Below are positions 38,260 to 54,375 of a DNA stretch of 64,000 nucleotides, one piece after another. Position 1 is the stretch's first letter. Every line of letters begins with the position of its first letter. The notes beneath the pieces are model-generated. The model saw only the letters and a program-made list of their open reading frames with translations, was not told where the DNA came from and searched no databases. Source of the stretch: Argyresthia goedartella (Eukaryota > Arthropoda > Insecta > Lepidoptera > Argyresthiidae); NCBI GenBank assembly GCA_949825045.1, contig OX463822.1, positions 33,606,703-33,670,702 of the forward strand, in the 5' to 3' direction. The translations under genes and the position numbers were made by a program.

Positions 38260-38474
38260 AGTAGGTAGATAATGACAGTTTAAATTCACTTCACGATCGT
38301 TCGGGCCTACGGGCTCGACAGATGGATCGAAAAACCTATCGACAGATGGATCGAAAAACCTATTGACAGTTCAAATTCATTTCACGATCGTTCGGGCCTA
38401 CGGGCTCGACAGATGGATCGAAAACCTATCGACAGATGGATCGAAAAACCTATTGACAGTTCAAATTCATTTCA
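38260..38474. repeat. Left terminal inverted repeat of the Polinton
   Basis: 215 bp reading the same as the complement of 53899-54113. It is made of two ~91-bp units, each with CACGATCGTTCGGGCCTACG and two copies of GACAGATGGATCGAAAA(A)CCTAT, plus a partial third unit. In protein-primed replication the ends are the origins, so these repeated words are candidate sites for the terminal protein, polymerase or integrase. Confidence 0.95.
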
Positions 38475-38880
38475 ATATAATTTCGGAAACTTATAATCAC
38501 TCATTTGGTCCGTCTTCCGGCTAATACAATGTAGTACTCATTTTACGTACTACACTTGCATCCAGACAAGTAATTTTAGTTTTCAATATAATTTCGGAAA
38601 CCTATAATCACTCATTTGGTCCGTCTTCCGGCTAATACAATGTGGTACTCATTTTACGTACTACACTTGCATCCAGACAAGTAATTTTAGATTTTCAATA
38701 TAATATCCTATTTTTAACTTACCATTTTTCTGCTCAGCTACACAAATGACTCTACACTTTCACTTTGACAATGTAAATATATACTAAATAACAACTGAAA
38801 GGAAGCTGAAACATAAGATGTTTGTTTAGTCCGTCTTCCGGCTTATACCAGGTAGTTCTCCTTTCATGAACTACCCTAGT
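38471..38880. repeat. Subterminal repeat block with three hairpins (left arm)
   Basis: Two 111-bp tandem units (from 38471 and 38582) and a diverged third (about 38815-38880) share a CCGTCTTCCGGCTAATAC-like core. Each is followed by a hairpin: GTAGTAC/GTACTAC at 38531-38553, GTGGTAC/GTACTAC at 38642-38664, and GGTAGTTC/GAACTACC at 38851-38875. Inverted counterparts lie at 40298-40460. Confidence 0.8.
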
Positions 38881-40297
38881 ATCTAAACAACTACACCATT
38901 AGTTTTCAGCAACACAGAGACCATCAATGCGTATTAATCCAAGAAATATGTTCGTTTTGTACTTATCCCAACCAGATCTGCTTTGTCTTTCTTGAAAGCC
39001 TGGTTCTTCAGGGAGTTTTGTAATCAAGGTGATCATAATTTAAAGGATTAACAACACACGATGTGTCCACTAACTTCACTTCACATAAATAAATTTAAAA
39101 TCTATTATTTAAAGTAAAATTTGGTGTTACCATCTTCTAAATGTTCCTTAACTGTTGCAACTTTTATCGAAATGAGACTATACAAAAACAAAACTTTAAT
39201 GTTAAAGTGAGTTTGTAACGTTAACTGCACCAACTAGCACGCTGCAAGTATCAAATATACTTCGCATGGTAAAGCGAGTCATTGAATCGTATAATATCCA
39301 TGGTAAGTACAACGTATGTAAGTAAAGTACGTAATGTAACATATCATTAATGATTATAGCTTTTACACGACACATTTTATGTGATGTTAGACGTAGGTAT
39401 GATAGGGCTAGCTCATCGCCACAGTTACCAATGCCGGTTTTAATAAATTGTATCTGGTAACCCTAGTGTGATTTGCTTTCGTATAACAATGCAATCGATG
39501 ACGGATGCCGGTCTCACGTTACCCGCTGGCGGTATTGTTTGTCATCACATTTAATTGATTTTATTTTACCTCTATTATTTTTTGCATAGTCGCAAGTGTG
39601 CAAATTTATACAGGGTGTAAATGAGTATTATGTTGTAAATATAATTGAGTTTATTTTTGCTAACAGCATAGGTTGTTGTTACTAGGTTAGGTATTTATTC
39701 TGAACAAGATTTCTGAAGGTATAACTGATAACGTAAATGAGTTATTTTATTTTTTATTTTTTTTCTTGTCCTATGAGTTGATTACTTATATCAAACGTAA
39801 GGAGTAAAACGTAAGTAATTAACTATTCTTATGATTATTTGTTCATTACACCGCAGTGAAGTTTTGTAAATATACATACCAGGAAAATATATTTATAGTT
39901 AAAATTAAAATGTTATGCATAGATAATGCTAATAAAACTTTCTCATGAATCTAGTTTTTCACGCCACTGAATAGGTATCGACAAACAATGACTTCATTAT
40001 TACACCCTGTAAATTACTTGCATGCTCATCATTTATTTCCAATAAAACTGCCAAAATCGAAAGAAAAATTATCAATTACTTTTGTACCATTGTTGGTAGT
40101 AACACCAAGCTACAGACGTTCACGCTAGTGCTCGCGCTCCAGGTCCACCGCGCCCCGTCTTCATATCCCTGCTGCAAGCTGCGTATCCACTGCGTTACAA
40201 TCATGTCAGTAAGTTTTTTAAGTTATTTTTATAGACATAGTTCTTGACTAATTGTATGTTTTTTGTTTTGCATAGATGGTGTACAAAGCTTATAACT
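38881..40297. other. Noncoding interior between inverted subterminal repeats
   Basis: About 1.4 kb of AT-rich sequence without a supportable ORF. The last ~150 bp (40090-40204) are GC-richer, CpG-containing, and lead into the start of the spliced gene, so its promoter and 5' UTR are probably there. Confidence 0.5.
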
Positions 40298-42004
40298 ATT
40301 TGTTTGGATACTAGGGTAGTTCATAAAAGGAGAACTACCTGGTATAAGCCGGAAGACGGACCAAATAAGTAGTTATAACTTATTCGAAAAGCTTTATAAC
40401 CTGTTTGAATGCAAGTGTAGTACGTAAAATGGGTACTACATTGTATTAGCCGGTAGACGGATCAAATGGGTTATAATAATCGAATATACCTATACCATGT
40501 AATTATTTGATATCTTACTAGTCTTTCCATGTCTTACGTTTTTACATTGTAACTAATTAATCTTAGGTACTGCAAGAGTGTTGGTAAGCTATATTCTAGT
40601 TTTATTTTCTCATTTACCTACATATGTACTTATTTTTATTTTTAGGTCGGACACTGAGTACTACACGAAGAAGGCTGCGACTAATGAGAAGCGGAACTCG
40701 TTTGAAACGGACGACGAGGCTGCTTTCTTATGGTAAATATCATTATACCAGCTATACGTATATCTTTATTATGCTCTCATAATATTACGTCACCCTGGTA
40801 CTCACATAGACTATCATATTTTATTGTTAACAGCAACAAAAAGAAAGCCGCTACAAAGTCAACAAAGCGTGTAGTCGAATCGGACGAGGAATCGGAGATT
40901 GTGAGGTAATTAACTTATTATTTTGAACTATAGATTTTGATAAATAACATTTTACAAAATTGAAATATGCTACAGTGATGTTTATGTTTTCAGGAACAAA
41001 AGGAAGGTTCCCGCTAAGCCGACGGCATCAAAGCGTGTAGCCGAATCGGATGAGGAATCGGAGATTGTGAGGTAATTAAGTTTTTATTTTCAACGATAGA
41101 TTTTGATAATTACATTCTACACAATTGCAATATGCTACAGTGATGTTTATGTTTTCAGGAACAAAAGGAAGGTTCCCGCTAAGCCGACGGCATCAAAGCG
41201 TGTAGCTGAATCGGATGAGGAATCGGAGATTGTGAGGTAATTAAGTTTTTATTTTCAACGATAGATTTTGATAATTACATTCTACACAATTGCAATATGC
41301 TACAGTGATGTTTATGTTTTCAGGAACAAAAGGAAGGTTCCCGCTAAGCAGACATCATCGAAGCGTGCCGCCGAATCTGACGACGATACAGTACAAAGGT
41401 GATTATTTTTTGTGACTTTTAATACATGAATCCTAGTTCGAACCGAGCAGCAAGTATGAATAAAATAAGGCTATGTCACGACATATTATGTGTTTAGTTT
41501 TAACAGGGATTCTAAAATCTCTCTTTCTATATTTTTCTGTCAATATTTAGGTATCTAGACGTCCAGTAAATAACTTTTGTTTTGTTTCACAGACGCAAAC
41601 CGCAAAAGGACCTGAAGCCTCCAGCCAAACGCAAGGTGCAGCAGAGCGTTGTTACTAAGAAGCCTGAAGAGAGTTGGCGCGCTTTGGATTCCGAAAGCGA
41701 GGACGAGGTGATCTGTAAGAAACCAGAGCTGAGGTCTTCATACTCGAAGCGGGTTGCCGACGGCGTCGTGCGGCGAAGTATTAAACTGGAGGGTGACCTC
41801 TACTTGGACCTGAAACTCTACCAGGTGGCGGATATCAAAGACGTGGAACCTCGCAAACGCTACGAGAAGGCGGTGCTGGCATTGAAGTATCAAGCTGACT
41901 TCAATTCACCACAACTGGGACTCCTGCGAGAGCTCTTAAAACTCTGCAAGACGTCTTTTACTGAAGAGGGATTTTTCTTCGGTGATAAGAAAAACTTAGA
42001 TTAG
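40203..42004 (+). CDS. Spliced Polinton-borne gene of unknown function with duplicated exons
   Basis: Seven exons: 40203-40204, 40646-40732, 40834-40905, 40994-41071, 41159-41236, 41324-41398 and 41593-42004. They sum to 804 nt in one frame (267 aa). The start codon would be split AT|G by the first intron (donor gtcagt), the least certain point; with the stronger gtaagt donor two codons on, the frame stops at once. Residues 1-30 are acidic (MSDTEYYTKKA). Exons 3-6 encode four ~25-aa repeats ending KRV(V/A)ESDEESEIV, alternating Lys-rich and acidic, and nuclear-looking. The last 137 aa form a globular helical domain (VRRSIKLEGDLYLDLKLYQV, KRYEKAVLALKYQADF, QLGLLRELLKLC). I do not recognise it. 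It lies between the left end and the polymerase gene, on the same strand. Confidence 0.7.
40298..40460. repeat. Subterminal repeat block, inverted arm
   Basis: Complementary copies of the 38471-38880 repeats in mirrored order. They are a GGTAGTTC/GAACTACC hairpin (40315-40339) followed by GGTATAAGCCGGAAGACGGA, then a GTAGTAC/GTACTAC hairpin (40417-40439) followed by GTATTAGCCGGTAGACGGAT. This arm falls within the first intron of the adjacent gene. Confidence 0.75.
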
Positions 42005-42137
42005 ATTTATTGGTTAATAAAATTTATTTAATAAGTTTACTATGTTTACTTTATAATTTATTAGGTAGGCAGGCATCCTTTATTGTAGGCCCCACGAAAG
42101 GTAGGTAGGTAGTAAAAATTAGGTGTAACTTAGGTAC

Positions 42138-42237
42138 AGTCTTCACAAAATAAAAGGCTCGGTGACAGCGTCCGTGTCACTGACGTAATAAGGTTAAATT
42201 TAGTTTGGGCTACCGACCCTTTTATATTGTGGAGACT
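42138..42237. repeat. 100-bp palindromic MITE, copy 2 (inside the Polinton)
   Basis: Left arm AGTCTTCACAAAATAAAAGG (from 42138) and right arm CCTTTTATATTGTGGAGACT (to 42237) pair over 25 bp with three mismatches. The core TGACAGCG...GTCACTGACGTAATAAGG...AATTTAGTTTGG is at the same offset as in copy 1. It sits 53 bp upstream of the polymerase ATG. Confidence 0.75.
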
Positions 42238-42290
42238 TTAGATAGGTTTTATTTATCATTTCTTAGGTTTTGTCCTTACATATAATTAAG

Positions 42291-45200
42291 ATGTCTAATA
42301 ATAGATTAGTATATTGTACATCCTGTGATGTCTCTGTAAAAAGTAAAAGTTTGTCAGCTCATTTGCGCAGCACTGTACACAAAAATAATAATGCTGTTAT
42401 TAAGGGTGAGGGTCTTGAGAAGATATCCAGTGCTTTCCGCAGTCGAATCGCAACGTACAGACTAAGCAACGTGGACTCGGGGGCGGCGGCGGGCGGCGCG
42501 GGCTCTAATGCTTGCCCTCCGAACATCTATCTGCGCTCGCTGCGGTCACGCGTACGTGAGCTGATAGAGGCGCGGATCGGCTCCTTTAACAGCGTTAAGG
42601 TAAATTTTGAACTGTATGCTGAGTTCTCCTTACCTAAGAATGATGAACGGGAGATTAAATCGTTCGCCACGCCCAATAAAGTGATTCACAAACATTATGA
42701 TTTTGAAGATATTTACAAAAACGCTGTAAATTTGATTGTTGCAAAAATCGATGAATTTCAGGAGAGAGACAGTGGTTGGAGTTTTGTAGCAAATTCGTAT
42801 CTGGAAGTCAATATCAACAAATATAATCCACTAAGAGGTTCAAGGTTTATCGATCTTCCTAGACCTATTAAATTAAAACGAGCGTGTGTCAATATTCAGA
42901 ACTCAGATAATTTCTGTTTTCTATGGTGCATAATGGCCGCTTTATTTCCTGCACAACAAAATTCACACCGAACGAGTTCATATCCTCATTTCGATACTGT
43001 GCTTAACACAAAAAACATGAAGTTTCCAGCAGGTTTCAGGGATGTAAAGATTTTTGAAAAGAATAACGATAACATAAGTATTAATATTTATGGTCTCAGT
43101 GAAAAGTCTGTTGTTGTAGGACCTTTATACAAATCTGTTCACAAGGGGCGGAAGCATCGTATAAATTTATTGTTTTTGGAATCGGGTGCGCTAACACATT
43201 ATTGTCTTATTAAGGATTTGAGTAGGCTTGTAAGGTCTCAGATAACTAAACATGATGGTAGAATATTTTTTTGTGATGATTGCTTGTTATTTTTTTCTAA
43301 TGATAAAAAGCGTAATGAGCATGTGTGCAGTGGTGTTAAAACGTCATTGCCTGATAAAGGGACATTGATACAGTTCAAACATTTCGAACGCATGCATGAT
43401 ATGCCATTTGTCATTTACGCAGATTTTGAGTCTATGTTACAACCCTGTTCGGAGAAAAACTCGAATTTTACGGAGTCGATTCAAAAACACGTTCCAGTAG
43501 CGTTCGGATATTATATTGTTTGCTCCTACGATGCGTCTTTAAATCGATATCAATCATACCGAGGTCCGGACTGTATTCAACAGTTTTTAAAAATATTAGG
43601 CGAAGACGTTGAAACGATAAGTAAAATACTAAACGATCCTATCGACATGTTACCCCTTAATGAAAATGAGCTGAAAAACTTTTTAGAGTCGAAAAATTGT
43701 TACCTCTGTAATAAGTTAATGTTTGAAGGAAAGGTTAAAGATCATTGTCATTTGACTGGACGCTACCGCGGGGCAGCTCATGATTATTGTAACCTTCGAT
43801 TTAAGCTCCCTAAATCTTTCGTCCCAATTTTTTTCCACAACCTGTCAGGCTATGACTGTCATTTGTTTATACGAGAGCTAGGTGAAATGCACGGAAACAT
43901 AAATGTTATCGCAAGAACAAAAGAAAATTATGTGTCTTTTACAAAGTTCTTTCCTGTTAACAATAATGACTATATGGCTGTTCGTTTTGTTGACTCATTC
44001 GCATTTTTAGGTACTAGTTTAGAAAAAGTTGCAGAAAATTTAGTAATCGAAGATTTTATCCACCTCTCTCGTTGCTACCCCGATAAACAGCAATTCGACT
44101 TATTGAGACGTAAAGGTATTTATCCTTACGAGTACATGAATAAATGGAAACGTTATGATGAAAATAAATTACCTCCGCGTGAGTGTTTCTACAGCAGTTT
44201 AACTGATGAGGTTATTTCAGAGTCAGATTATGCTCACGCACAGTGTGTGTGGCGCTTATTCCATTTGTCAAACCTTGGTCAATATACCGATCTATACTTA
44301 AAATCAGATGTAATGCTGTTGACGGATATTTTTGAGAGTTTTAGAAAGACGTGTAAAACTAATTATAGGTTAGACCCAGCCTTTTACATAACGGCTCCCA
44401 GCTTAAGCTTCGATGCAATGCTGTTAAAAACAGAAGTAAAATTAGAATTAATAGATGATCTGGAAATTATCAGAATGATACAAAAAGGTATTCGTGGAGG
44501 TGTTTGTTTATGTTCTACTCGCTATGCCAGTGCTAATAATAAGTACCTCTCGAACTACAACCCCTCGAATCCTGATAATTACTTATTGTATATAGATTGT
44601 AATAATTTGTACGGATTTGCTATGTGTAGTTATTTACCACACTCTGATTTCGAATTGATCGAAAATCCTGTGTTTCAAGTTTGTGACATTCTCTGTTTAC
44701 AAGACAATTCAGATGTAGGTTACATTTTTGATGTCGATCTAGAATATCCTGAATCTCTACATGATCATCATAACGATTTACCTTTCTGCCCACAAAAATT
44801 TGTACCGCCTGGATCTAAAACGAGTAAACTGATACCGAATTTGTATGACAAATATAATTATGTTATGCACTATATTCATTTGAAAACGTGTCTGAAACAT
44901 GGACTTAAATTAAAAAGCATACACAGAGTTATTAAATTTAAACAAGGTCCATATTTGAAACAATATATTGATTTAAATACGGAATTGAGGCAAAAAGCTA
45001 AATCTCAATTTGAACAAGACTTTTTTAAATTATTAAACAATAGCATTTTTGGTAAAACCCTTGAGGATACGGAAAAAAGGTTAAATGTTAAATTAGTAAA
45101 TCAGTGGTCTGATAAACATAACAAAACGAAAAAACATTTAGGCGCAGAGCAACTAATAGCTCGACCTAATTACCATAGCTCAACTATTTTTACTGAAAAT

Positions 45201-45830
45201 TTTGTAGCGGTCCAGATGAATCCTGAAAAAATTACTCTCGATAAACCAATTTACATTGGTTTTTCTGTTTTGGAAATATCTAAGAGTCATATGTACGACT
45301 TTCACTATTCTGTTATGAAACCTTTTTATGGCCCTAATATAAAAATGTGTTACACAGATACTGACAGTTTTCTGTATTCCATAACAACGAAAGATGTCTA
45401 CAAAGACATAAAATACCATTTCCCTCAATACTTCGACACTAGCAACTACGCGTGTAATAATATGTATGGTATAAGGAGGCATAATAAAAAAGTGCCTGGG
45501 TTATTTAAAGATGAGCTAGGAGGTCAGCTTATAGTCGAATTTGTAGGCCTACGGTCTAAACTTTATTCCATAAAAACTGAAGATACTGAATTAAAAAAAG
45601 CTAAAGGAACCAAAAAATCTGTTGTGAAAACATTGAGTTTTAAGGACTATAAAGGTGTTTTATTAGATAATAATTTAGTTAGGAAAAAAAATATGGTATT
45701 CAGGTCATTAAAACATGAAATTTTTACACAGTCGCTTAATAAAATAGCTCTCTCAAGTAATGATGATAAGCGCATCATTCTAAAAAATAAAATATCAACT
45801 CTTTCATGGGGTCATGAATCAGCATTTTGA
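42291..45830 (+). CDS. Polinton protein-primed family B DNA polymerase
   Basis: 1179 aa from ATG 42291; the seven codons upstream lack an ATG. Domains in order: a C2H2 finger (C9, C12, H24, H30); a cysteine-protease-like module with D206-x2-C209 (NSDNFCFLWCIMAAL) and H303 (THYCLI); a C-x2-C/H-x-C cluster (C328, C331, H344, C346). The 3'-5' exonuclease has D378/E380 in YADFES, FFHNLSGYDCHLF, and YLKSD (669-673). An endonuclease-VII-like C-x2-C...DHCH...H...C insert lies at 470-500. Polymerase palm: motif A YIDCNNLYGF (D769), motif B LLNNSIFGKT, motif C YTDTDS (D1023, D1025), then KLY (1090-1092). It replicates the linear element using a protein primer at the terminal repeats. All catalytic residues are present. 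The 3' end has three repeated AATAAA-bearing units (45880-46000). Confidence 0.97.
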   Translation: MSNNRLVYCTSCDVSVKSKSLSAHLRSTVHKNNNAVIKGEGLEKISSAFRSRIATYRLSNVDSGAAAGGAGSNACPPNIYLRSLRSRVRELIEARIGSFNSVKVNFELYAEFSLPKNDEREIKSFATPNKVIHKHYDFEDIYKNAVNLIVAKIDEFQERDSGWSFVANSYLEVNINKYNPLRGSRFIDLPRPIKLKRACVNIQNSDNFCFLWCIMAALFPAQQNSHRTSSYPHFDTVLNTKNMKFPAGFRDVKIFEKNNDNISINIYGLSEKSVVVGPLYKSVHKGRKHRINLLFLESGALTHYCLIKDLSRLVRSQITKHDGRIFFCDDCLLFFSNDKKRNEHVCSGVKTSLPDKGTLIQFKHFERMHDMPFVIYADFESMLQPCSEKNSNFTESIQKHVPVAFGYYIVCSYDASLNRYQSYRGPDCIQQFLKILGEDVETISKILNDPIDMLPLNENELKNFLESKNCYLCNKLMFEGKVKDHCHLTGRYRGAAHDYCNLRFKLPKSFVPIFFHNLSGYDCHLFIRELGEMHGNINVIARTKENYVSFTKFFPVNNNDYMAVRFVDSFAFLGTSLEKVAENLVIEDFIHLSRCYPDKQQFDLLRRKGIYPYEYMNKWKRYDENKLPPRECFYSSLTDEVISESDYAHAQCVWRLFHLSNLGQYTDLYLKSDVMLLTDIFESFRKTCKTNYRLDPAFYITAPSLSFDAMLLKTEVKLELIDDLEIIRMIQKGIRGGVCLCSTRYASANNKYLSNYNPSNPDNYLLYIDCNNLYGFAMCSYLPHSDFELIENPVFQVCDILCLQDNSDVGYIFDVDLEYPESLHDHHNDLPFCPQKFVPPGSKTSKLIPNLYDKYNYVMHYIHLKTCLKHGLKLKSIHRVIKFKQGPYLKQYIDLNTELRQKAKSQFEQDFFKLLNNSIFGKTLEDTEKRLNVKLVNQWSDKHNKTKKHLGAEQLIARPNYHSSTIFTENFVAVQMNPEKITLDKPIYIGFSVLEISKSHMYDFHYSVMKPFYGPNIKMCYTDTDSFLYSITTKDVYKDIKYHFPQYFDTSNYACNNMYGIRRHNKKVPGLFKDELGGQLIVEFVGLRSKLYSIKTEDTELKKAKGTKKSVVKTLSFKDYKGVLLDNNLVRKKNMVFRSLKHEIFTQSLNKIALSSNDDKRIILKNKISTLSWGHESAF

Positions 45831-46473
45831 GCTGTATATGTATGAATATAACTTGTCTCTAAACTATAGCTTGTAAGTGAATATTGTTTTAAAAATAAAA
45901 TATCGTGCTTAGTGAATATTGTTTTAAAAATAAAATATGAATCAACATAGACTCTAAACTATAGCTTTTAAGTGAATATTGTTATATTAAAATAAAAAAT
46001 GTGTTCTCGGATTATGTTTCGTGTTTCTTTTTAAGCTTAATGTTACAACATACCCTACTTAATGTCAGATATCAGCCGGAGTGGACTTGTATGTAGAGGT
46101 TAGGTACTTTAGAATGGTTTTCTAAAAGATGGAACATATCGCTTGAAAGCGATAACGTTGAAATGATTATGATGACTAATCGCAACGTGAATATTGCACG
46201 TGTTGCGTTCAATGAACTCAATTTGAAAAATATAACAATATGTGCATATTAACGTAAGCAAAATTTTATTAAGAAATGCAAGATTAGGTGATTTGTTTTA
46301 TTACAACGTGATAATGACCATTTCTAAAGAAGGTAGCTTAAGAAGAGGACGCGGTTCATTACTCCAAGATTATGTCTATATTAAACGAGGTAAAACATAC
46401 TGTTTATTTTTGGATGATTATTATAAAGTTTATTTTCGCAGTAAACTACATCATGTTTTTTGTTTTACAGTCA
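45831..46473 (+). other. Polymerase 3' end and leader of the next gene
   Basis: 45880-46000 holds three copies of AAGTGAATATTGTT...AAAATAAAA, giving several AATAAA signals. A possible noncoding exon ends ATTAAC with donor gtaagc at 46253; a TTTTGTTTTACAG acceptor ends at 46470, three bases before the next ATG. No supportable gene here. Confidence 0.5.
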
Positions 46474-46830
46474 ATGGATCCCTCTGACTTGTGGTTCCAA
46501 CACGCTCAGCCTCAAAATTATGACGACGTTCTGCAAGATTCTACACCCAGTCAAGACACCAAAGAAAAGAAAAAGAAGAAAAAGATGAGATTGGACAGAA
46601 ATAAATTAAATCCGACAGTGTTGTCATCATACGTAATAACAAAGGCCCCGAAAAGACCTCTTCGTTTGATTAAGATAGAAATTTACGACTTAAATGGACC
46701 TCAGACTTGTACAGATGATAGTGTTGTAAGCGTACAGTACGTACAATCGGAAGTAGTAGATGAAATAATGGACTTGTCAGAGAATTTAGTGAATAAAATT
46801 TGTAAAAAAATATGCAATGATTCTATTTAA
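46474..46830 (+). CDS. Small lysine-rich Polinton protein, function unknown
   Basis: 118 aa from ATG 46474 (MDPSDLWFQHAQPQNYDDVL). A Lys tract (KEKKKKKKMRLDRNK) at about 31-45 could be a nuclear localisation or DNA-binding segment. The C-terminal half is mixed beta/helix (RLIKIEIYDLNG, VVDEIMDLSENLVNKICKKI). A good splice acceptor lies just upstream, so the mRNA probably has a spliced leader exon. It is convergent with the minus-strand block. I do not recognise a family; a DNA-condensing or accessory role is only a guess. Confidence 0.6.
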   Translation: MDPSDLWFQHAQPQNYDDVLQDSTPSQDTKEKKKKKKMRLDRNKLNPTVLSSYVITKAPKRPLRLIKIEIYDLNGPQTCTDDSVVSVQYVQSEVVDEIMDLSENLVNKICKKICNDSI

Positions 46831-47012
46831 ATAAATAAAATTCACTATTAATTTATTTTGATGTTTTATTTATGTACTTTAAGTCTTTAACCCTTGTGTA
46901 GTTTAAAGGGATGCTGAAATAAAATCAATAATTTAGGTAAACAAACATTTATTATTAATCATTTTTTAAACTAATCGATAACACATACACTCATAAAACA
47001 AAAGTAAAATAA

Positions 47013-47501
47013 TTACATAGTTATTTGTTTATCTTTAAACCATTTTTTAATACATAATACGTTTCTTAGAGCACAATTGGATTTGTGAGTTATACAACTG
47101 AAATCATTGAGATGTGATTTAAACATCTCAAACAACTGTTTTAAATTTGGACATCCTTTTTCTTCTATGTTTATTATTGCACAGTTCTCACACAATTCTT
47201 TCAACCATTTTACCTTTTCTAAACCTTTAACTATTAAAAGTTTGTTCTCTAGATATGGTTTGATAATACTTTTGAACTGCAGAAAATCAACGTGTCCCTC
47301 ACCCCATCTGTACCCGAGATTGTTTTCAATCCATTGTACACGTTTCTTTTCCACTTCTGATAAATATCGATAAGGATACGGAGGCTTGATGAGAAATACT
47401 TGAGTGTATTCGGCTGTAGCCAACGCAAGTTCTTTAACAATGAAATCATTCTCAGCATTTTTAAAACCTTGTACGTCTACAAATAAAGTTTTTGTATTCA
47501 T
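47013..47501 (-). CDS. Conserved Polinton protein (162 aa), function unknown
   Basis: The ATG at 47501 overlaps the capsid gene stop as ATGA. It starts TLFVDVQGFKNAENDFIVKE and continues with FLIKPPYPYRYLSEVEKKRV and WIENNLGYRWGEG. A Cys/His-rich end has ENCAII...KGCPNL and CITHKSNCALRNVLC. I recall proteins of this pattern in arthropod Polinton-type elements. The DVQGF...KE start is reminiscent of a DEDD/RNase-H-like exonuclease first motif, but later acidic residues are not convincingly placed, so no activity is claimed. It is the last gene of the minus-strand block. Confidence 0.65.
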   Translation of the reverse strand: MNTKTLFVDVQGFKNAENDFIVKELALATAEYTQVFLIKPPYPYRYLSEVEKKRVQWIENNLGYRWGEGHVDFLQFKSIIKPYLENKLLIVKGLEKVKWLKELCENCAIINIEEKGCPNLKQLFEMFKSHLNDFSCITHKSNCALRNVLCIKKWFKDKQITM

Positions 47502-48715
47502 GATAATTTTCTTACAATATTACTTAATGGTTTATATTCAATTAAACATTCATTCAGAATAAGACAATACGCCGACGTTTGATCAGGTATTTCTACTTCA
47601 CTCTCGAGCTCTAGGCGTACATTAACCACCGGTCCAGATTTCAGATTATCGCTTTGTCTTGAACAGTCTATAACAAAAAGAGGAGCCAACTCTTTGAACT
47701 CTTTTGCACTCAACAATGGCTCAGTTCTTCTGCCGTAATAAGACTGCTGAAATCTAACGTATTGCTCGTATAATATAGCAATATTGTCGTTAGTAAAACT
47801 TACGTTCATATTGTCGTACGGAAAGTAGGTTGAGTTTAGATATACTTTTACATCACGCAAATTACAATGATCGAATTGTGACATGTCTTTGTGAGCGTCG
47901 TTTTTGCGATTGGTCTGCAACCCTAGTATAACATATCGTGGTTTTTCAATCTGGGAAGATGTTTTGATTGACCATGTATGCTTTGTAGTTCTTGGCAGCA
48001 AGGGATATTCATACAAATCCCAATTTCTAAATGGTACTTGGATAGATCTATCCTTTTCCAACAATCGTAGAAGATTGATTCTTTCCGCGTCACTCACTTT
48101 TACATGTGGAACTCGCCATATAATTTTATGAATTTTTACGTCTTCTACGACTTCACCGGTATTTAATTTTAGAGCATTCAGGTTTGTGTTACTGCGAAGA
48201 AGAACAAGTTCATGTTTGCAGTTGATTATAACTTTCTTATAATCTTCTGCAAATCCTAGGATGTTACACAGAGGTATCGACGCTGAAAATTTTCCTGATT
48301 GCACGTTTTTCGTGCCATTGATATCCCAACCCCACGCTTTAGACATCTTTGACTCACTATCATTCATAGACAACAGTGACTTCATTGTAGTAGTAATTCC
48401 AGCGTTTTTAACCTTATCTACTTCAACTCCATTCAATTCATAACGAATATCTTGAAAAAAGTATAACAGCGGATTATTTGTAAACTGCACACTAGCAACC
48501 GTTTCCTTTGCAGCGTTCTTCGAAACATTGACGACACCTTCCAAATATAACGTGCTTGCCGATGGGAGTATGTACAGATCTTGTTGATTAATCGGTATAC
48601 GAATTTCATCATTACGATTGAATGTAGTGACATAAGGTTTATACGAATGAATCTCAATACCATCAATGCTATTATCATAGACAGGCGCACTCAAAATATC
48701 TAGAATGTTACTCAT
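47498..48715 (-). CDS. Polinton major capsid protein (double jelly-roll)
   Basis: 405 aa from ATG 48715. It starts MSNILDILSAPVYDNSIDGI, with an early YILPSASTLYLEG strand pair and NNPLLYFFQDIRYELNGVEV. LLEKDRSIQVPFRNWDLYEY follows at about residue 218, then KPRYVILGLQTNRKND and VYLNSTYFPYDN. The ending is a beta-rich VNVRLELESEVEI segment. These blocks match the F54H12.2-like / double jelly-roll family found in arthropod and nematode Polintons, proposed as the hexon of their capsid. Length is typical of that family and no break is seen. It follows the minor capsid gene and overlaps the next gene by start/stop. Confidence 0.85.
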   Translation of the reverse strand: MSNILDILSAPVYDNSIDGIEIHSYKPYVTTFNRNDEIRIPINQQDLYILPSASTLYLEGVVNVSKNAAKETVASVQFTNNPLLYFFQDIRYELNGVEVDKVKNAGITTTMKSLLSMNDSESKMSKAWGWDINGTKNVQSGKFSASIPLCNILGFAEDYKKVIINCKHELVLLRSNTNLNALKLNTGEVVEDVKIHKIIWRVPHVKVSDAERINLLRLLEKDRSIQVPFRNWDLYEYPLLPRTTKHTWSIKTSSQIEKPRYVILGLQTNRKNDAHKDMSQFDHCNLRDVKVYLNSTYFPYDNMNVSFTNDNIAILYEQYVRFQQSYYGRRTEPLLSAKEFKELAPLFVIDCSRQSDNLKSGPVVNVRLELESEVEIPDQTSAYCLILNECLIEYKPLSNIVRKLS

Positions 48716-48851
48716 GATAAAAGTCCAATTTGTTTAAGGAATTTTATATTTTTTGCAGTTAGTTTCTTCTTCTTCCAAGTCCTTTCCTTGTGAGAGATTG
48801 AAGTGTGACTAATCGTTTTTGGTAGTCGTGATAAGTTTTTATTAAAATCAA

Positions 48852-49523
48852 TCATTTTTTCTTAAGGTGTAAATACAGTTGAACTTCTTCACCACGTAAA
48901 TTAATTAAATTATTCTTAATGTCCAATATCCTTACAGTTATGGTGCTTATGTTATTTTGGTTTACGGGAAAATAAATAACGTTCTTTGGTATTTCTATTA
49001 ACCTATAACCTGGTGGAACGTTAGGAGCAAACTCATGTATAATGTGACTTGATATGCCATTTATATATGATCCACTCACTATATCACATTCTATTCTCAC
49101 CACAGTTGTTGAAAGCATATTAACAGGATATTGTGATTCGTGTAATATATTAGCTTCAAGCGGTTGATTACCAAATCCTAACAAATTTCCTAGACTATTT
49201 TCTTTCTCAAAATGAATAGCTTTGTTGCTGATAATGTACGTTTTCAATGTATTATTGTTGCATGATAAATTAAAGTTGATGTCTTGCAATTTTCCTTTCA
49301 GGTAGTCGTTTATATCTTGCAATTCGTATGTTCCTTCAGGAATTTCAATAACATCATTTTCACCGTAATAAAACTTGTTATTTGTACTATCAACGTTTGG
49401 AATTGAATTAAAGGTAGATAGGTATAGCAGAGCGCACTCATATTCTCCCTCTAGTTGTAATGTAGGAGAATAATTCGTAATTAAAAGCGACGTATTGCCT
49501 GTTATTGATAGGGTGAATGACAT
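48852..49523 (-). CDS. Polinton minor capsid protein (penton-like, single jelly-roll)
   Basis: 223 aa from ATG 49523 (MSFTLSITGNTSLLITNYSP). I chose this start because the family normally begins with MSFTL. An in-frame ATG at 49553 shares its A with the protease stop (TGATG) and would add ten residues. Family features are LEGEYECALLYLSTFNSIPN, NNKFYYGENDVIEIPEGTYE, the LLGFGNQ loop and a beta-rich end with NLRGEEVQLYLHL. Such proteins form the pentameric vertices in Polinton and related capsids. It is followed by the major capsid gene after 136 bp. Confidence 0.8.
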   Translation of the reverse strand: MSFTLSITGNTSLLITNYSPTLQLEGEYECALLYLSTFNSIPNVDSTNNKFYYGENDVIEIPEGTYELQDINDYLKGKLQDINFNLSCNNNTLKTYIISNKAIHFEKENSLGNLLGFGNQPLEANILHESQYPVNMLSTTVVRIECDIVSGSYINGISSHIIHEFAPNVPPGYRLIEIPKNVIYFPVNQNNISTITVRILDIKNNLINLRGEEVQLYLHLKKK

Positions 49524-49552
49524 TTTAACAATGGTGAAAATAAACGCTAACA

Positions 49553-49930
49553 TCAATACTTTATATGTTTATTCCAAAAATCTTGCAAGTACTTTAAACA
49601 TAAATGTCCACAGTTCACACTTTCATAAGTCTGATATCGAGTATAATTGTAATACAAATTAGGAGTATTGAGATATTTCACAACTTCTACCGGCGGCTTC
49701 AAGTTTCCAAAGCTGTCAAAATATTCATAATAGTCTTTCAGTTTTATGTAGGCTACCCAGTGTGTTCCGGCATTGTGCGAATCGTCTAAATTTATAATAC
49801 CACATTCTATACTTCTTGGTTTTCGTGGTAAAGCATCTTTCATGTAAACTCCACGAAAATATGGTATTTCTCTAGCATATTCGATGATATCTAAATTGGT
49901 CAGAGCACGCTTAGGCAGCCTGTTTATTAG
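49553..49930 (-). CDS. Polinton maturation protease (adenain-like), probably made by -1 frameshifting
   Basis: The first ATG (49843) would give 96 aa with all catalytic residues: H28 (GTHWVAY), D43 (YFDSFG), Q71 and C78 (NCGHLC), with the adenain Q-to-C spacing of seven. The family's conserved N-terminal block (LTNLDIIEYA...FRGVY) lies upstream of that ATG in the same frame, without any ATG back to a stop at 49942-49940. That frame is -1 relative to the PLA2-like gene, which ends in the heptamer A AAA AAC (49936-49930) directly before its TAA. I therefore annotate the frame from the slip site. The protease should cleave capsid and core proteins in the particle. Use of the internal ATG would remove about 29 conserved residues. 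Confidence 0.8.
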   Translation of the reverse strand, partial: LINRLPKRALTNLDIIEYAREIPYFRGVYMKDALPRKPRSIECGIINLDDSHNAGTHWVAYIKLKDYYEYFDSFGNLKPPVEVVKYLNTPNLYYNYTRYQTYESVNCGHLCLKYLQDFWNKHIKY

Positions 49931-50658
49931 TTTTTTGATTTAATAAACAAGCCACTACCTTTTTTGTAAGGTTTGATGTATAAGCCTCGACCCACTGAAA
50001 TTGATTCCATCTTTTGATTGTGACGTTTTGATTCTCGCAAACTTTCTTGAGCAGCTTTATAATCATTAACACTTTTTGCTATTCCAGCTGCCCCTCCAGC
50101 AAGACTTCCTAAAGCAGACAACCCAGCAAAGATAGGTATTAAAGGAAGAAATCCTCCACTTTTAGGGAGAGGAATAATTCGTGGTATCCTTATGTTGTGT
50201 TTGGTATCTACATCAATTAACTTTTTGGCGACCGCATAAGCAACTTTAATAGCACTATTACTATTTTTTGGTTTTAATTTCTGAAGATGACCTTTTATTT
50301 TAGATACCATATCTTTAAAACGTCGTACCCCAGACCCGGTTTTAAGTTTTGTCTTCATGACTTTATTAACCAACCAAGAAGCTATCTTTTCACCACGCTT
50401 AGCGTCTTTTGATCGTAGTCTCTGTTTTGTCATATTCAGTAAATCCAAATCAGCTTTATGTCGGTTTTCTAAATCAGAGAATTTCGTATACGCTATGTCG
50501 TGATGCATACATGCGTTGTCCAATAGATTGATGCCCTTATCTCCACGTGCTAGACGCTTCACCAGCTTTGTTCCAGGACCACAATAATTATAGCCAGGTA
50601 GATGTAGCTCGATCGGTAAATTATTGATAAAACTGTTAATAAGACCTCCGCCATGCAT
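49927..50658 (-). CDS. PLA2 / adenovirus pVI-like minor virion protein
   Basis: 243 aa from ATG 50658. Residues 20-60 are a parvovirus-VP1-type phospholipase A2 core: the calcium loop YNYCGPG (24-29 region) and NACMHHDIAY with the catalytic H53-D54 pair. A basic middle (70-135) follows. 165-195 is a Gly/Ala/Leu-rich hydrophobic segment (SGGFLPLIPIFAGLSALG), then an amphipathic helix and a basic end. This resembles a membrane-lytic or core protein such as adenovirus pVI or pX. The start MHGGG fits the adenain cleavage rule (M/L/I-x-G-G then any residue). It starts 26 bp after the integrase gene and is probably extended into the protease frame by -1 frameshifting. Confidence 0.75.
   Translation of the reverse strand: MHGGGLINSFINNLPIELHLPGYNYCGPGTKLVKRLARGDKGINLLDNACMHHDIAYTKFSDLENRHKADLDLLNMTKQRLRSKDAKRGEKIASWLVNKVMKTKLKTGSGVRRFKDMVSKIKGHLQKLKPKNSNSAIKVAYAVAKKLIDVDTKHNIRIPRIIPLPKSGGFLPLIPIFAGLSALGSLAGGAAGIAKSVNDYKAAQESLRESKRHNQKMESISVGRGLYIKPYKKGSGLFIKSKN
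49930..49936 (-). other. Candidate -1 ribosomal frameshift site, A AAA AAC
   Basis: In the zero frame of the PLA2-like gene the last codons are TCA AAA AAC TAA, so the heptamer has the exact X XXY YYZ phasing of canonical -1 sites. Slipping one base back enters the protease frame, which is closed upstream by a stop at 49942-49940. Only 13 nt are therefore available for the shift and they contain this heptamer. No obvious stable pseudoknot was found by eye downstream; the TAA follows immediately. Confidence 0.7.
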
Positions 50659-50684
50659 TACTGATAATAGACTAAGGTTATAGT

Positions 50685-51614
50685 TTATACCATTGCCTTT
50701 TTATCGATCCAACTATTTTGAGTTTCATCTAAACCTAACCATTTTACAAACAACTTATTCCCTTTTTTTCTTATGACTTTTTCAATTAAATATACATCAG
50801 GATATTTGGTCTTCTGGAGTTCTTGATCATAAAAACTTCCTAAAATCGGTTGACGACGACTATCTTCAATCAAATAAGTAACAGGAATCGTGTTGTTTAC
50901 CTTCTTGATAAGAAATATTTCTGTCGACCAATTAGGCGTATAGCCTTTTTTAAAACAGCTTTTGTATTTACTTATTCTTACGTTATCGCCAACACAAAAT
51001 TTAGGTTTCTTAACGTGATTAGTTTTACTCTGGAACTTTTTGATATTGTCTAATACTTTGCTTGCATTTAACTTTGTTACTTTTGCAGGCTCCTCTTGCG
51101 TAACACGATGTTTTGTATGATTGTAAGAATGAACTACACTTTCTAATGGTTTACCTAGCCACTTGTAACTACCTTTAAAAGAAAAATTCTTATAGAGATG
51201 TGCTTTTAATGTTCTGATTAATCTTTCCACTATGGATGCTTTTTTAACTGAATATGTAGAATAGTGATTTATTTTGTAGGTTTTCATTAGTCTTTTGAAT
51301 TCATCGTTGTAGAATTCAGTTCCCATATCTGTTTGTAGATTATTTGGTTGTCTTCTACTTTTCTGCAAGATGCTTTCGAAGACTTGACACATTTCTTGTT
51401 TAGATTTAGTTTTAAGAGGTACAGCCCACGCATATTTTGAGAAGCAATCAATAACGACAAGAATAAACTTATAACCTTTATTATAAATTTTCAATGAAAT
51501 AACATCTATCAAATCTGCCTGCCACAAATCATCAATTCCTTTGAGAAGCACTGATCGACGAGAAAAATTTTTTCTTGCATTTTTATGTATTTCGTTTACC
51601 ACCTGCTGCTTCAT
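50685..51614 (-). CDS. Polinton integrase (retroviral type) with C-terminal chromodomain
   Basis: 309 aa from ATG 51614, with A at -3. The rve core has D34 (LWQADLIDV), D96 (LQTDMGTEFYN) and E130 (KKASIVERLIRTLKA), the DDE triad. The middle matches insect Polinton integrases (SYKWLGKPLESVVHSYNHTK, KFCVGDNVRISKYK, FKKGYTPNWSTEIF). A chromodomain-like end (YPDVYLIEKVIRKKGNKLFV, KWLGLDETQNSWID) could direct the enzyme to modified histones. It catalyses strand transfer of the element ends, giving the 6-bp duplication. Its first 32 nt overlap the end of the 118-aa gene. There is no canonical HHCC zinc domain in this frame; the protein may be short at the N-terminus. Confidence 0.92.
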   Translation of the reverse strand: MKQQVVNEIHKNARKNFSRRSVLLKGIDDLWQADLIDVISLKIYNKGYKFILVVIDCFSKYAWAVPLKTKSKQEMCQVFESILQKSRRQPNNLQTDMGTEFYNDEFKRLMKTYKINHYSTYSVKKASIVERLIRTLKAHLYKNFSFKGSYKWLGKPLESVVHSYNHTKHRVTQEEPAKVTKLNASKVLDNIKKFQSKTNHVKKPKFCVGDNVRISKYKSCFKKGYTPNWSTEIFLIKKVNNTIPVTYLIEDSRRQPILGSFYDQELQKTKYPDVYLIEKVIRKKGNKLFVKWLGLDETQNSWIDKKAMV

Positions 51615-51939
51615 CTTTGTTCAACGATTTAATGATATTATCTAATTCACTCCTCGTATAAACATCCTTTATAAAGTTATTCAGCACTCCTTGTATATCT
51701 TTAATTGCTTCGTTCAGTAGAAATTGACAATCTTCCCGTAAATCTTTACTCTTCATATCAACGTACTCCTTGTTTACGGCGTCGTCTGACTCTTGTGGTG
51801 CCTTTAAACCTTTTAATCGTGACGACTGAAGATCAAAAAGTCCTTCTTCGTTTTTGGTCAACGCATTGTCAGTAAAATCAAACAATTCAGATAAACGTAA
51901 ACGTTTATGAACATGGTGACCGAATTTATCAATATTCAT
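51583..51939 (-). CDS. 118-aa Polinton protein with tail-fibre-like motif
   Basis: ATG 51939 opens MNIDKFGHHVHKRLRLSELF. Residues about 42-62 read LKGLKAPQESDDAVNKEYVD, which strongly resembles the 'L..V..P...tDAVNKqYVD' motif of phage tail fibres and trimeric coiled-coil adhesins. The rest is helical (LREDCQFLLNEAIKDIQGVL, VYTRSELDNIIKSL), fitting a trimeric stalk. It overlaps the integrase start by 32 nt in another frame. Function as a virion fibre or fibre anchor is inference; it could be an unrelated coiled-coil protein. Confidence 0.6.
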   Translation of the reverse strand: MNIDKFGHHVHKRLRLSELFDFTDNALTKNEEGLFDLQSSRLKGLKAPQESDDAVNKEYVDMKSKDLREDCQFLLNEAIKDIQGVLNNFIKDVYTRSELDNIIKSLNKDEAAGGKRNT

Positions 51940-52020
51940 AGTACTGAGGTAGATTACCCTAGTTATTTGTAGAGAGTTGAAGATGAAGTGCTCAAAATAA
52001 TTTAAGTATGATTATTTATT

Positions 52021-52995
52021 CTAACCAAGCAAACCACTTTCTTTGAGTTCTTCTATGATGGATATTATTTCATTATCAAGTCCAGTGTTTCCAGCGTCAC
52101 GAGATGCTATAAGTAGTTTTAACCTATCCACTAGCTCATTTGGATCATCCCAGTAGACATAGTCTATATTTTTCTTCCATTTTTTTAGTACAGGTAAACC
52201 TGAACCTTGAACCTGATTGCTTTCACTATTGTCATGTTTATTAAATAGCGGTTTAATAATGTTTAAGTATTTTATTCCTTTGTTGCTTTTTACTGGTTTA
52301 TTTGAGTCGTAATCTCGCCTATGTGCATTTGTCTCCAACAGCATTAACTTGTAATTTGCCAAGTCTTCCTTTGTTATATCTGCCAAGTCTGGTAATTTTT
52401 TGGTTAGCAATTCCATCAAGCCTCGAGTCTTATTGTAATCAGATGTTCCTATTGTAATGGTTTTATCGGTGATATTTACATTCGCTGAGCCCATCAAAAG
52501 TTTTCCTCTTTCGACTCTTACTCCAAAAGGAGTATTCTTTAAATACTCCGATGTAAGCGACCATGATGAACAATTTTGGTTCTGAGTGTTTGCATCAGAC
52601 TCAATCGAATTTTGAGATATATCAGATTCTTGTCCTTCATTAAAGTCGTTGTCAGAATCTTCGCCTTCCATTTCCGCTGCACGATCTAAGCTATGAGTAG
52701 GTGTCATAAATTGATCAGAACGTCTTATATTTCGTAAAGTGTCATCGGCTGCACTCCGGTCAATGGAATCGTCGATTTCATTTTCAAATTTCGTCTCTCC
52801 ATTTTTGATAGGACATGTTGTTTCTTTGCTCTCTGTTTGCCTCATAGCATCAGTAATTTTATTAAGGGGGCTAAGAACTGGTTTGAACACGTTTCCTATA
52901 GCTCTTTCATATTCTGATTCAACGTTACGCATTTTTTTAAACTTTTTCTTTACTGCTTCGGCAGCAGTTACGATTTCCTTTAAGTTATTTTCCAT
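52021..52995 (-). CDS. Conserved Polinton protein (324 aa) of unknown function
   Basis: The start was chosen at ATG 52995 (MENNLKEIVTAAEAVKKKFK), which begins a conserved helical segment; the frame is open back to the ATPase stop. Residues about 70-150 are acidic and Ser-rich, probably disordered (SDNDFNEGQESDISQNSIES). The final block DYVYWDDPNELVDRLKLLIA followed by NEIISIIEELKESGLL is one I recall from many arthropod Polinton-type elements. The position between ATPase and integrase is typical of a virion or scaffold protein, but the role is not known. Confidence 0.75.
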   Translation of the reverse strand: MENNLKEIVTAAEAVKKKFKKMRNVESEYERAIGNVFKPVLSPLNKITDAMRQTESKETTCPIKNGETKFENEIDDSIDRSAADDTLRNIRRSDQFMTPTHSLDRAAEMEGEDSDNDFNEGQESDISQNSIESDANTQNQNCSSWSLTSEYLKNTPFGVRVERGKLLMGSANVNITDKTITIGTSDYNKTRGLMELLTKKLPDLADITKEDLANYKLMLLETNAHRRDYDSNKPVKSNKGIKYLNIIKPLFNKHDNSESNQVQGSGLPVLKKWKKNIDYVYWDDPNELVDRLKLLIASRDAGNTGLDNEIISIIEELKESGLLG

Positions 52996-53079
52996 ATCTA
53001 AATAATATCTTGTATGCTCGTCCTCTTCTAAGCTAAGTGCTAAGCTATCGAATAAAACAGCATTTATATATACTTTCAC

Positions 53080-53766
53080 TCAGGTAAAAACGACGAACGT
53101 GTCAAACTGTTTACGATAGCACCCTTTATTTTTTTCACAATCTTTGTTTATGACCAAGTAGCTATAAGAATCGTTCCATATTTTTGAACACATTTCTCGA
53201 AATTCGTTCCATGTCATATCCGTGTTAACATGTTCATCATATATATGTCGTAAATTAATGTCATCTTGTTTAAAAAGTACAAGTAGGTTTGCATTGTCTC
53301 TAACAAGTTGTTTGGGTATTTTAGTATAAGTCTGGTTTAAATAAAAACAATCAATATTTTTGTGTCTGCCCATTGCGAAATAATCACGCATGTTGTTTTG
53401 ATTTTCACATGAGACATCATCAAATATAATTACTGAGTTTGATTGCGCTTCCTCCGTGCTGAGTACTTGCTGATTAGCATGGAATTTAAAGAACGATATA
53501 CTCGGAACTAAACTTAAGACCTTCTCAAGAAATTCGTATTTTGGTTGATGTAAGGTTTTTGAATAAACGTAAATATTCTGGAAGTGGAGCCCGTTTTCAT
53601 GTAATAGAAGACCGACCATCAGATTCGTTTTCCCGCAGTTTGACGGCCCGCATATCAGACATCGTATGGAATTTGGTAACAGGTTACCATGGCGAAGTAT
53701 TTTAGTTGAGTCAGAAGTACATAATTTATCTAAGTGTAATGTACTTTTTTGTTTTAAAAATTTCAT
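53080..53766 (-). CDS. Polinton genome-packaging ATPase (FtsK-HerA, A32-like)
   Basis: 228 aa from ATG 53766; the seven codons upstream start with GTG and are unlikely coding. Walker A is GPSNCGKT (40-47), Walker B VIIFDDV (112-118), followed by a polar sensor in YLNQTYTKIPKQLVRDN. Such ATPases pump the replicated linear DNA into preformed capsids. Intact and of normal length. It is the first gene of the minus-strand block, 133 bp from the right terminal repeat, so the promoter of the block is expected at 53767-53900. Its TGA stop is followed in the same frame by the open leader of the next gene. Confidence 0.92.
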   Translation of the reverse strand: MKFLKQKSTLHLDKLCTSDSTKILRHGNLLPNSIRCLICGPSNCGKTNLMVGLLLHENGLHFQNIYVYSKTLHQPKYEFLEKVLSLVPSISFFKFHANQQVLSTEEAQSNSVIIFDDVSCENQNNMRDYFAMGRHKNIDCFYLNQTYTKIPKQLVRDNANLLVLFKQDDINLRHIYDEHVNTDMTWNEFREMCSKIWNDSYSYLVINKDCEKNKGCYRKQFDTFVVFT

Positions 53767-53898
53767 ATTGAAATCGGTATGATTCACTTGGAAATCTGCA
53801 TAAGACTACAAATATTTCGAATATTAATAACATTATATTGTGTAGCAGCCTGGTTCTGGATCAAGAATCATCCGACCCCGAACTTAGGCTCTACGTCG

Positions 53899-54113
53899 TG
53901 AAATGAATTTGAACTGTCAATAGGTTTTTCGATCCATCTGTCGATAGGTTTTCGATCCATCTGTCGAGCCCGTAGGCCCGAACGATCGTGAAATGAATTT
54001 GAACTGTCAATAGGTTTTTCGATCCATCTGTCGATAGGTTTTTCGATCCATCTGTCGAGCCCGTAGGCCCGAACGATCGTGAAGTGAATTTAAACTGTCA
54101 TTATCTACCTACT
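53899..54113. repeat. Right terminal inverted repeat of the Polinton
   Basis: Complement of 38260-38474 over 215 bp; I found no difference on reading, including the unit-specific AAAACC/AAAAACC length variation. Ends ...CTACCTACT directly before AATGGC. Confidence 0.95.
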
Positions 54114-54375
54114 AATGGCAAATCCTAATTTTATAAAACTTTGTGTGCATGAATTAGACAACATTTAGCTCTAACAAATTTGATTTAAGTTTTGAAAAGT
54201 GTCAGCTGTAAAATAAAATACGAATCTTATCATGAAAATGGATGACATTTAGGACGAACTGATTCTGCAGATTAAATTTTAATTATAAAACTGGAAATTA
54301 AAAGAAAAAAAAAATATGTAAATGGAAAACATTAAAATTAACTTTGAAACAAAGAAAAAATAATGGAAATAACTA

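Follow-up and report, generated by a model that had tools for sequence, protein, structure and literature searches.

A protease controlled by frameshifting is a hallmark of retroviruses, and Polintons also carry a retrovirus-like integrase. A stimulatory stem or pseudoknot is usual, although not universal, downstream of -1 frameshift sites. In the available text of the sources cited here, AAAAAAC is listed as the gag-pro slip site of BLV, HTLV-I and MMTV (PMC3835772), and for adintoviruses a single sentence mentions a potential fusion of Hexon and Adenain ('Hexain') by a -1 shift, which is called hypothetical, in an article that also reports Penton -1 shifts predicted by KnotInFrame (PMC11071296). 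The Mavericks of Spodoptera frugiperda are described as encoding CAP (PLA2) and then PRO as separate ORFs, and the accessible text makes no mention of frameshifting between them (PMC5803895); Sf-RVN cells reportedly transcribe Mavericks (PMC5803895). For adenain, the adenovirus protease, the available text of PMC8537868 names two activators, DNA and a disulfide-linked peptide of the pVI C-terminus; the initial annotation of the locus studied here likewise names the C-terminal peptide of pVI. Up to the time of PMC8097293, as far as its accessible text goes, nobody had observed particles of Mavericks.

Across the accessible texts on Polinton, Maverick, adintovirus, adenain and 'eukaryotic DNA transposon', with subscription literature falling mostly outside the search, no case of a frameshift between a PLA2 protein and a protease was found. 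Where adintovirus texts other than PMC11071296 name frameshift in their accessible parts, they mean mutations, settings of an alignment or a virus with an RNA genome, and PMC8547959 has no 'frameshift' passage. The remark of the initial annotation that no description of such an arrangement in Polintons was known holds within these texts for the PLA2-protease combination and has to be qualified by the hypothetical adintovirus Hexon-Adenain shift.

A Polinton and its PLA2-protease junction

The window, that is the whole stretch of 64,000 nucleotides analysed, contains an apparently intact Polinton of 15,854 bp at 38260-54113. It has the long inverted ends and 6-bp duplication of a Polinton/Maverick: the left (38260-38474, plus strand) and right (53899-54113, minus strand) terminal inverted repeats are 215 bp in length and 100% complementary to each other, and the target duplication, AATGGC at 38254-38259 and 54114-54119, is perfect. 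The gene set is likewise that of a Polinton/Maverick, with an rve integrase (PF00665), a packaging ATPase (PF04665) and a double jelly roll capsid protein (PF21738), all above the Pfam cut-off, together with an adenain-like protease; the integrase ORF also matches a chromodomain, below its cut-off. On the minus strand the order is A32-type packaging ATPase, two ORFs without name, rve integrase, PLA2 protein, adenain-type protease, an ORF in the penton or minor capsid gene position, a 47-aa basic ORF, the double jelly roll major capsid protein (47498-48715, E 3.6e-110) and a last ORF. A large plus-strand ORF of 1186 aa (42270-45830) contains by eye the sequences YTDTDS and NNSIFGK, which we take to be polymerase B motifs; its sole Pfam match at E<=0.01 is Endonuclease_7, below its cut-off. 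A further plus-strand ORF of 152 aa without Pfam match lies at 46372-46830, between the polymerase and the late genes, and the left part of the element (38488-38893 and 40291-40479) holds several inverted repeat pairs of 72-91 nt that are 79-93% alike. The reading as a pseudogene was rejected, given the identical inverted ends, the open frames and the intact predicted protease fold.

Four successive late-gene junctions on the minus strand (48712-49555 and 47498-47501) overlap stop and start as TGATG, ATGA, ATGA and ATGA, and this arrangement suggests coupled translation of a polycistronic mRNA. The ORF in the minor capsid position (48852-49553, minus strand), for which no Pfam match was found, overlaps with its start ATG the protease stop as TGATG, and the basic ORF (48712-48855, minus strand) shares an ATGA with the ORF ahead of it, in the minor capsid position, and another with the major capsid gene on its other side. 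From PLA2 to the last ORF, the junction between PLA2 and protease is the exception, having no AUG.

The PLA2-domain protein (243 aa, 49927-50658, minus strand) matches Pfam PF08398 with an E of 5.6e-15, and its relative in the Spodoptera Mavericks is the one named CAP. Its frame, read from 50658 to 49927, terminates ATT AAA TCA AAA AAC TAA, so that a slippery heptamer, A AAA AAC (49930-49936), is phased as X XXY YYZ relative to the PLA2 frame, TC[A AAA AAC] TAA, and is abutted by the stop TAA at 49927-49929. Upstream, a TAA at 49940-49942 shuts the -1 frame, and therefore a -1 shift is possible only within the 13 nt from 49939 to 49927. After a slip the frame would continue from 49930 as CTA ATA AAC AGG CTG CCT and so on to a TGA at 49555-49553, with its first ATG at codon 30 (49841-49843), inside the conserved fold. 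The initial annotation had read the same PLA2 ending with the heptamer in phase, the same 13-nt limit and a protease frame lying -1 to PLA2 without ATG for about 29 codons, and all of these are confirmed in the minus-strand sequence.

Taken alone, the heptamer is weak evidence and could be due to chance at the few-percent level. AAAAAAC occurs 42 times on both strands of the window with 39.1 expected, and canonical heptamers in phase number 23 in the 3209 codons of the element's ORFs, about one per 140, which gives a chance of about 2.8% over four codon positions. The weight of this evidence comes from conservation in relatives. An assembly error with a missing base in the run of six A, which the initial annotation had named as a possible refutation, is very unlikely because the same stop stands right after Lys-Asn in 131 of the 138 relatives described below.

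The protease in the -1 frame (125 aa, 49553-49930, minus strand) is of the adenain type, as indicated by its predicted structure, which has the adenain fold, and by His57, Asp72, Gln100 and Cys107, which align with the catalytic positions of adenain. His57, Gln100 and Cys107 are invariant in a protease alignment of 68 rows; Asp72 is present in the window protease and is Asn at that position in some relatives. A helix at residues 12-21 and a strand at 25-30 precede or end at the first ATG, codon 30, and a protease started at this AUG would lose, in the predicted model, both of these opening elements of the adenain fold. The -1 frame is thus a coding sequence for an adenain-type domain whose first AUG lies within the fold.

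The predicted structure of the PLA2 protein was poor (mean pLDDT 56.7) and was left out of the fold searches. Its matches in PHROGs were weak and to families of unknown function, and in a PDB profile search with the PLA2 alignment most matches were capsid proteins of parvoviruses (lowest E 0.0012), which fits this type of PLA2. The label 'pVI-like' given to this virion protein in the initial annotation finds no support: no pVI occurs among the listed Pfam matches, and those to adenovirus protein X are weak and below the cut-off. A strongly conserved hydrophobic stretch at 50077-50157 (minus strand), GG-x-LPLIPIFAGLSALGSLAGGAAGIA, shows such a weak, below-cut-off likeness to protein X. Right ahead of the slip site, at 49945-49992 (minus strand), there is a candidate cleavage or activating peptide, the tandem motif GxGLYIKPYKxGxGLF, which relatives conserve well.

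Conservation of the site in relatives

Relatives of the PLA2 protein were taken from the best-scoring matches of two protein searches, the first providing the best 120 of 2388 at E<=1e-3 and the second, scored on residues 1-120 only, the best 120 of 986, of which 20 were new, for a total of 140 distinct sequences. Two short ones in which the tail is absent, P0243 (156 aa) and P0256 (179 aa), were set aside. All the 138 best-scoring full-length relatives that are left have Lys-Asn at the C-terminus, the two residues whose codons are spanned by the heptamer, and so do the new full-length matches found with residues 1-120 (18/18). The stop follows Lys-Asn directly in 131 of the 138 and comes one or two codons later in 7. 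The entropy is 0 bits at both Lys and Asn, 1.7 bits at the residue just before Lys, 3.1 bits at the second residue ahead of it and 2.8 bits at the third, most of the neighbouring residues being variable. The residue preceding Lys-Asn always has a codon of the form xxA (0 exceptions among the 138 best-scoring relatives), and at the two positions further upstream residues without such a codon occur in 32/138 and 38/138. Serine precedes Lys-Asn in 91 of these 138 and, because of this dominance, a peptide preference may contribute to the xxA rule. When the set was thinned to less than 90, 80, 75, 72 and 70% identity over the rest of the protein, leaving 127, 71, 41, 20 and 15 representatives, every thinned set kept Lys-Asn throughout with zero xxA exceptions. 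Judged from these sequences, the protein-side pattern of an xxA residue, Lys and Asn is the look of NNA AAR AAY.

On the side of the protease the best 120 of 1196 matches were listed. Among them, 29 have at least four residues ahead of the conserved LP, and in 27 of these KKL, which is encoded by AAR AAR YTN, stands exactly three residues before LP (the exceptions are P0088 and P0098); the residue after KKL in the 27 is N, I, V, S, K, G or L. The predicted start lies within three residues of LP in 49 of the 120 and inside or past the conserved block in 42, such starts being gene-caller choices that may be GTG or TTG.

We inferred 31 PLA2-protease pairs (25 + 6) from an identical length of the longest contig, all of which keep Lys-Asn in the PLA2 protein. 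In 8 of them the site can be seen in both frames; in the other 23 the protease start is downstream, with the site outside view. In 8 of the 8 inferred pairs with both frames visible, one DNA encodes both proteins in the -1 register and A AAA AAY is forced, the AAA codons being forced in these eight decoded pairs only and the seventh base being C or U in relatives. As a control for dual coding, 51 of 3492 mismatched combinations pass, and when the register is moved by one, two or three codons none of the 24 cases does. In P0177, which ends KNVQ-stop, and P0194, which ends KNM-stop, the next 0-frame codon bars KKL in the -1 frame, and Lys-Asn is still kept; thus the constraint follows the heptamer rather than the KKL peptide. 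Conservation of the site and of the -1 phase, by which the initial annotation had proposed that its reading be judged, is found at the protein level, with Lys-Asn in 138/138 best-scoring relatives and A AAA AAY forced in 8/8 inferred pairs. Searches for the DNA of relatives in viral contigs (with the protease sequence, the protease alignment, the PLA2 alignment and a degenerate dual-coding DNA pattern), in genome contigs (with the PLA2 and protease alignments) and in phages and plasmids (with the PLA2 protein as tblastn query) found none.

Relatives with the two genes in one frame or with an ATG-started protease had been named beforehand as counter-evidence. No in-frame PLA2-protease fusion was found among the 140 best PLA2 matches, within a length limit of about 425 aa, the longest being 273 aa and without protease motif; in-frame fusions fall outside the scope of the protease search, whose length limit was about 218 aa. 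Against the frameshift reading stand some listed proteases with possible starts and P0088. This divergent protease reads KNL-PIK-LP at the aligned place, the order expected with PLA2 and protease in one frame.

Start codons, RNA structure and alternative readings

Energies of downstream structures, which the initial annotation had proposed to compute, gave no signal in the window sequence alone: for a stem downstream of the heptamer the minimum free energy has z values of -0.15 and -0.67, within chance, and the best score for an H-type pseudoknot was attained in 28 of 200 shuffles. The protease might instead be made by termination-reinitiation or independent initiation, from an AUG near the PLA2 stop or upstream of it in some relatives and, for the copy in the window, from a codon other than AUG. 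Four stop/start overlaps downstream make coupled initiation plausible for this element, and among the 120 listed proteases a possible gene-caller start lies upstream of the heptamer in 27, and in 17 Met, a possible UAAUG, opens the linker of three residues after it. Against this, the protease frame can contain an AUG ahead of the site only where PLA2 has a Cys or a Trp, and 109 of the 138 best-scoring PLA2 proteins have no Cys or Trp within the 25 aa before the site, so that at most 29/138 could have an AUG there. The window itself has none, 42 of the 120 listed proteases begin inside or past the conserved block, and in the pair P0245/P0022 the predicted protease start is forced to TTG. As read from these sequences, there is no AUG common to relatives, neither upstream of the site nor just after the stop. 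A separate start would moreover leave the in-phase retention of A AAA AAY unexplained, and we regard it as unlikely.

The remaining alternatives have to account for the same retention. Transcriptional slippage, in which RNA polymerase would insert one A into the A6 run of some mRNAs and fuse the frames without a ribosomal slip, agrees with the presence of that run, since one additional A does join both genes in one frame. However, six A are short for polymerase slippage, and the exact codon phase and the pyrimidine after the run are kept (Lys-Asn in 138/138 best-scoring relatives, never Lys-Lys), which is needed by tandem tRNA slippage and not by a polymerase; we therefore find a transcriptional origin very unlikely. 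A spliced or separate mRNA supplying the protease start codon is slightly less probable still: by eye CTAAT...ACAG|G past the heptamer resembles a branch site and acceptor, but the distance from branch to AG, also judged by eye, is a mere 7 nt, and the variation of the residue after KKL in the 27 relatives given above means that no branch consensus is kept. The reading as a splice acceptor was rejected because the bases after the site are unconserved, and the available text of PMC8097293, describing intact vertebrate Mavericks as intronless, also counts against splicing. Finally, the Lys-Asn ending could serve PLA2 only as a signal at the peptide level, or this could be a decayed copy, with an incidental overlap. 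The preference for serine ahead of Lys-Asn (91/138 best-scoring) is what a peptide motif might produce; against it stand the xxA rule, A AAA AAY forced in 8/8 pairs, the identical ends of the element and the intact predicted protease fold, and this explanation appears to us the least probable of all.

Proposed mechanism and relation to known systems

The in-phase heptamer, the 13-nt limit, the lack of an AUG for 29 codons and the retention in relatives lead us to propose that A AAA AAC UAA is probably a programmed -1 ribosomal frameshift site, which would append an adenain-type protease to a minority of the PLA2 chains. Since the A-run keeps one codon phase and is followed by a pyrimidine, tandem tRNA slippage is favoured over polymerase slippage. 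The interpretation of the initial annotation is retained in part, as the best explanation as regards the -1 fusion, its 'pVI-like' label finding no support. In this mechanism ribosomes would translate the PLA2 ORF until Lys-tRNA is on AAA and Asn-tRNA on AAC, and most of them would terminate at the abutting UAA with release of the 243-aa PLA2 protein. A minority would re-pair one base back (AAA AAA), skip the UAA and read CUA AUA AAC and onwards for 125 codons, leading to a PLA2-Lys-Asn-Leu-Ile-Asn-Arg-...-protease chain of about 368 aa. The PLA2 part, with its PLA2 domain followed by the hydrophobic stretch, would carry the protease into the particle, and the protease may later free itself from the fusion. 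We infer the slippage itself, its rate, the delivery to the particle, the self-release of the protease and the control of its dose. A broader proposal, which we put forward only tentatively and hold to be rather doubtful, is that the stop-abutted A AAA AAC UAA might be the ancestral and obligatory protease route of all Polintons in this clade, a dosage and packaging switch of Gag-Pro type without pseudoknot, in which the stop would act as stimulator and the PLA2 tail GxGLYIKPYKxGxGLF as a targeting or activating peptide in cis.

If the programmed frameshift is true, DNA viruses and transposons have reached a dosing of the Gag-Pro type with an unrelated protease. Such a frameshift gives a possible route by which a Polinton makes its maturation protease and corrects gene models that begin the protease at a downstream Met, with Lys-Asn-stop as a mark of intact elements, and the peptide of the protease fusion would be a defined mass spectrometry target for Maverick particles.

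The system proposed here resembles retroviral Gag-Pro (MMTV, HTLV-I, BLV) in the heptamer, in the -1 shift and in the order of a structural protein followed by a maturation protease in the next frame, and also in that the protease would sit on a minority of the chains. It differs in belonging to a DNA transposon or virus, in having a PLA2-domain protein in the place of Gag and a cysteine protease of the adenain type instead of an aspartic one, and in that neither pseudoknot nor stem was detected here. With the adintovirus 'Hexain', as available text describes it, it shares a Polinton-like animal element and the proposal that frameshifting attaches adenain to a virion protein, whereas the partner is the PLA2 protein and not Hexon, and the signature is present in 138/138 best-scoring relatives. 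The Spodoptera frugiperda Mavericks have, in the accessible description, the same relative order of ATP, INT, CAP and PRO, although the window has one extra small ORF before INT; P0185, a CAP from these Mavericks, shows about 68-69% identity to the window PLA2 protein over 98% of its length and ends HPKN. The protease resembles adenain in its predicted fold and aligned catalytic positions but, unlike adenain, for which available text gives DNA and a pVI-derived peptide as activators, would be made as a C-terminal fusion. The machinery is known, and what is new, as far as the accessible texts go, are the partners, the class of element and a stop-abutted, widely conserved site.
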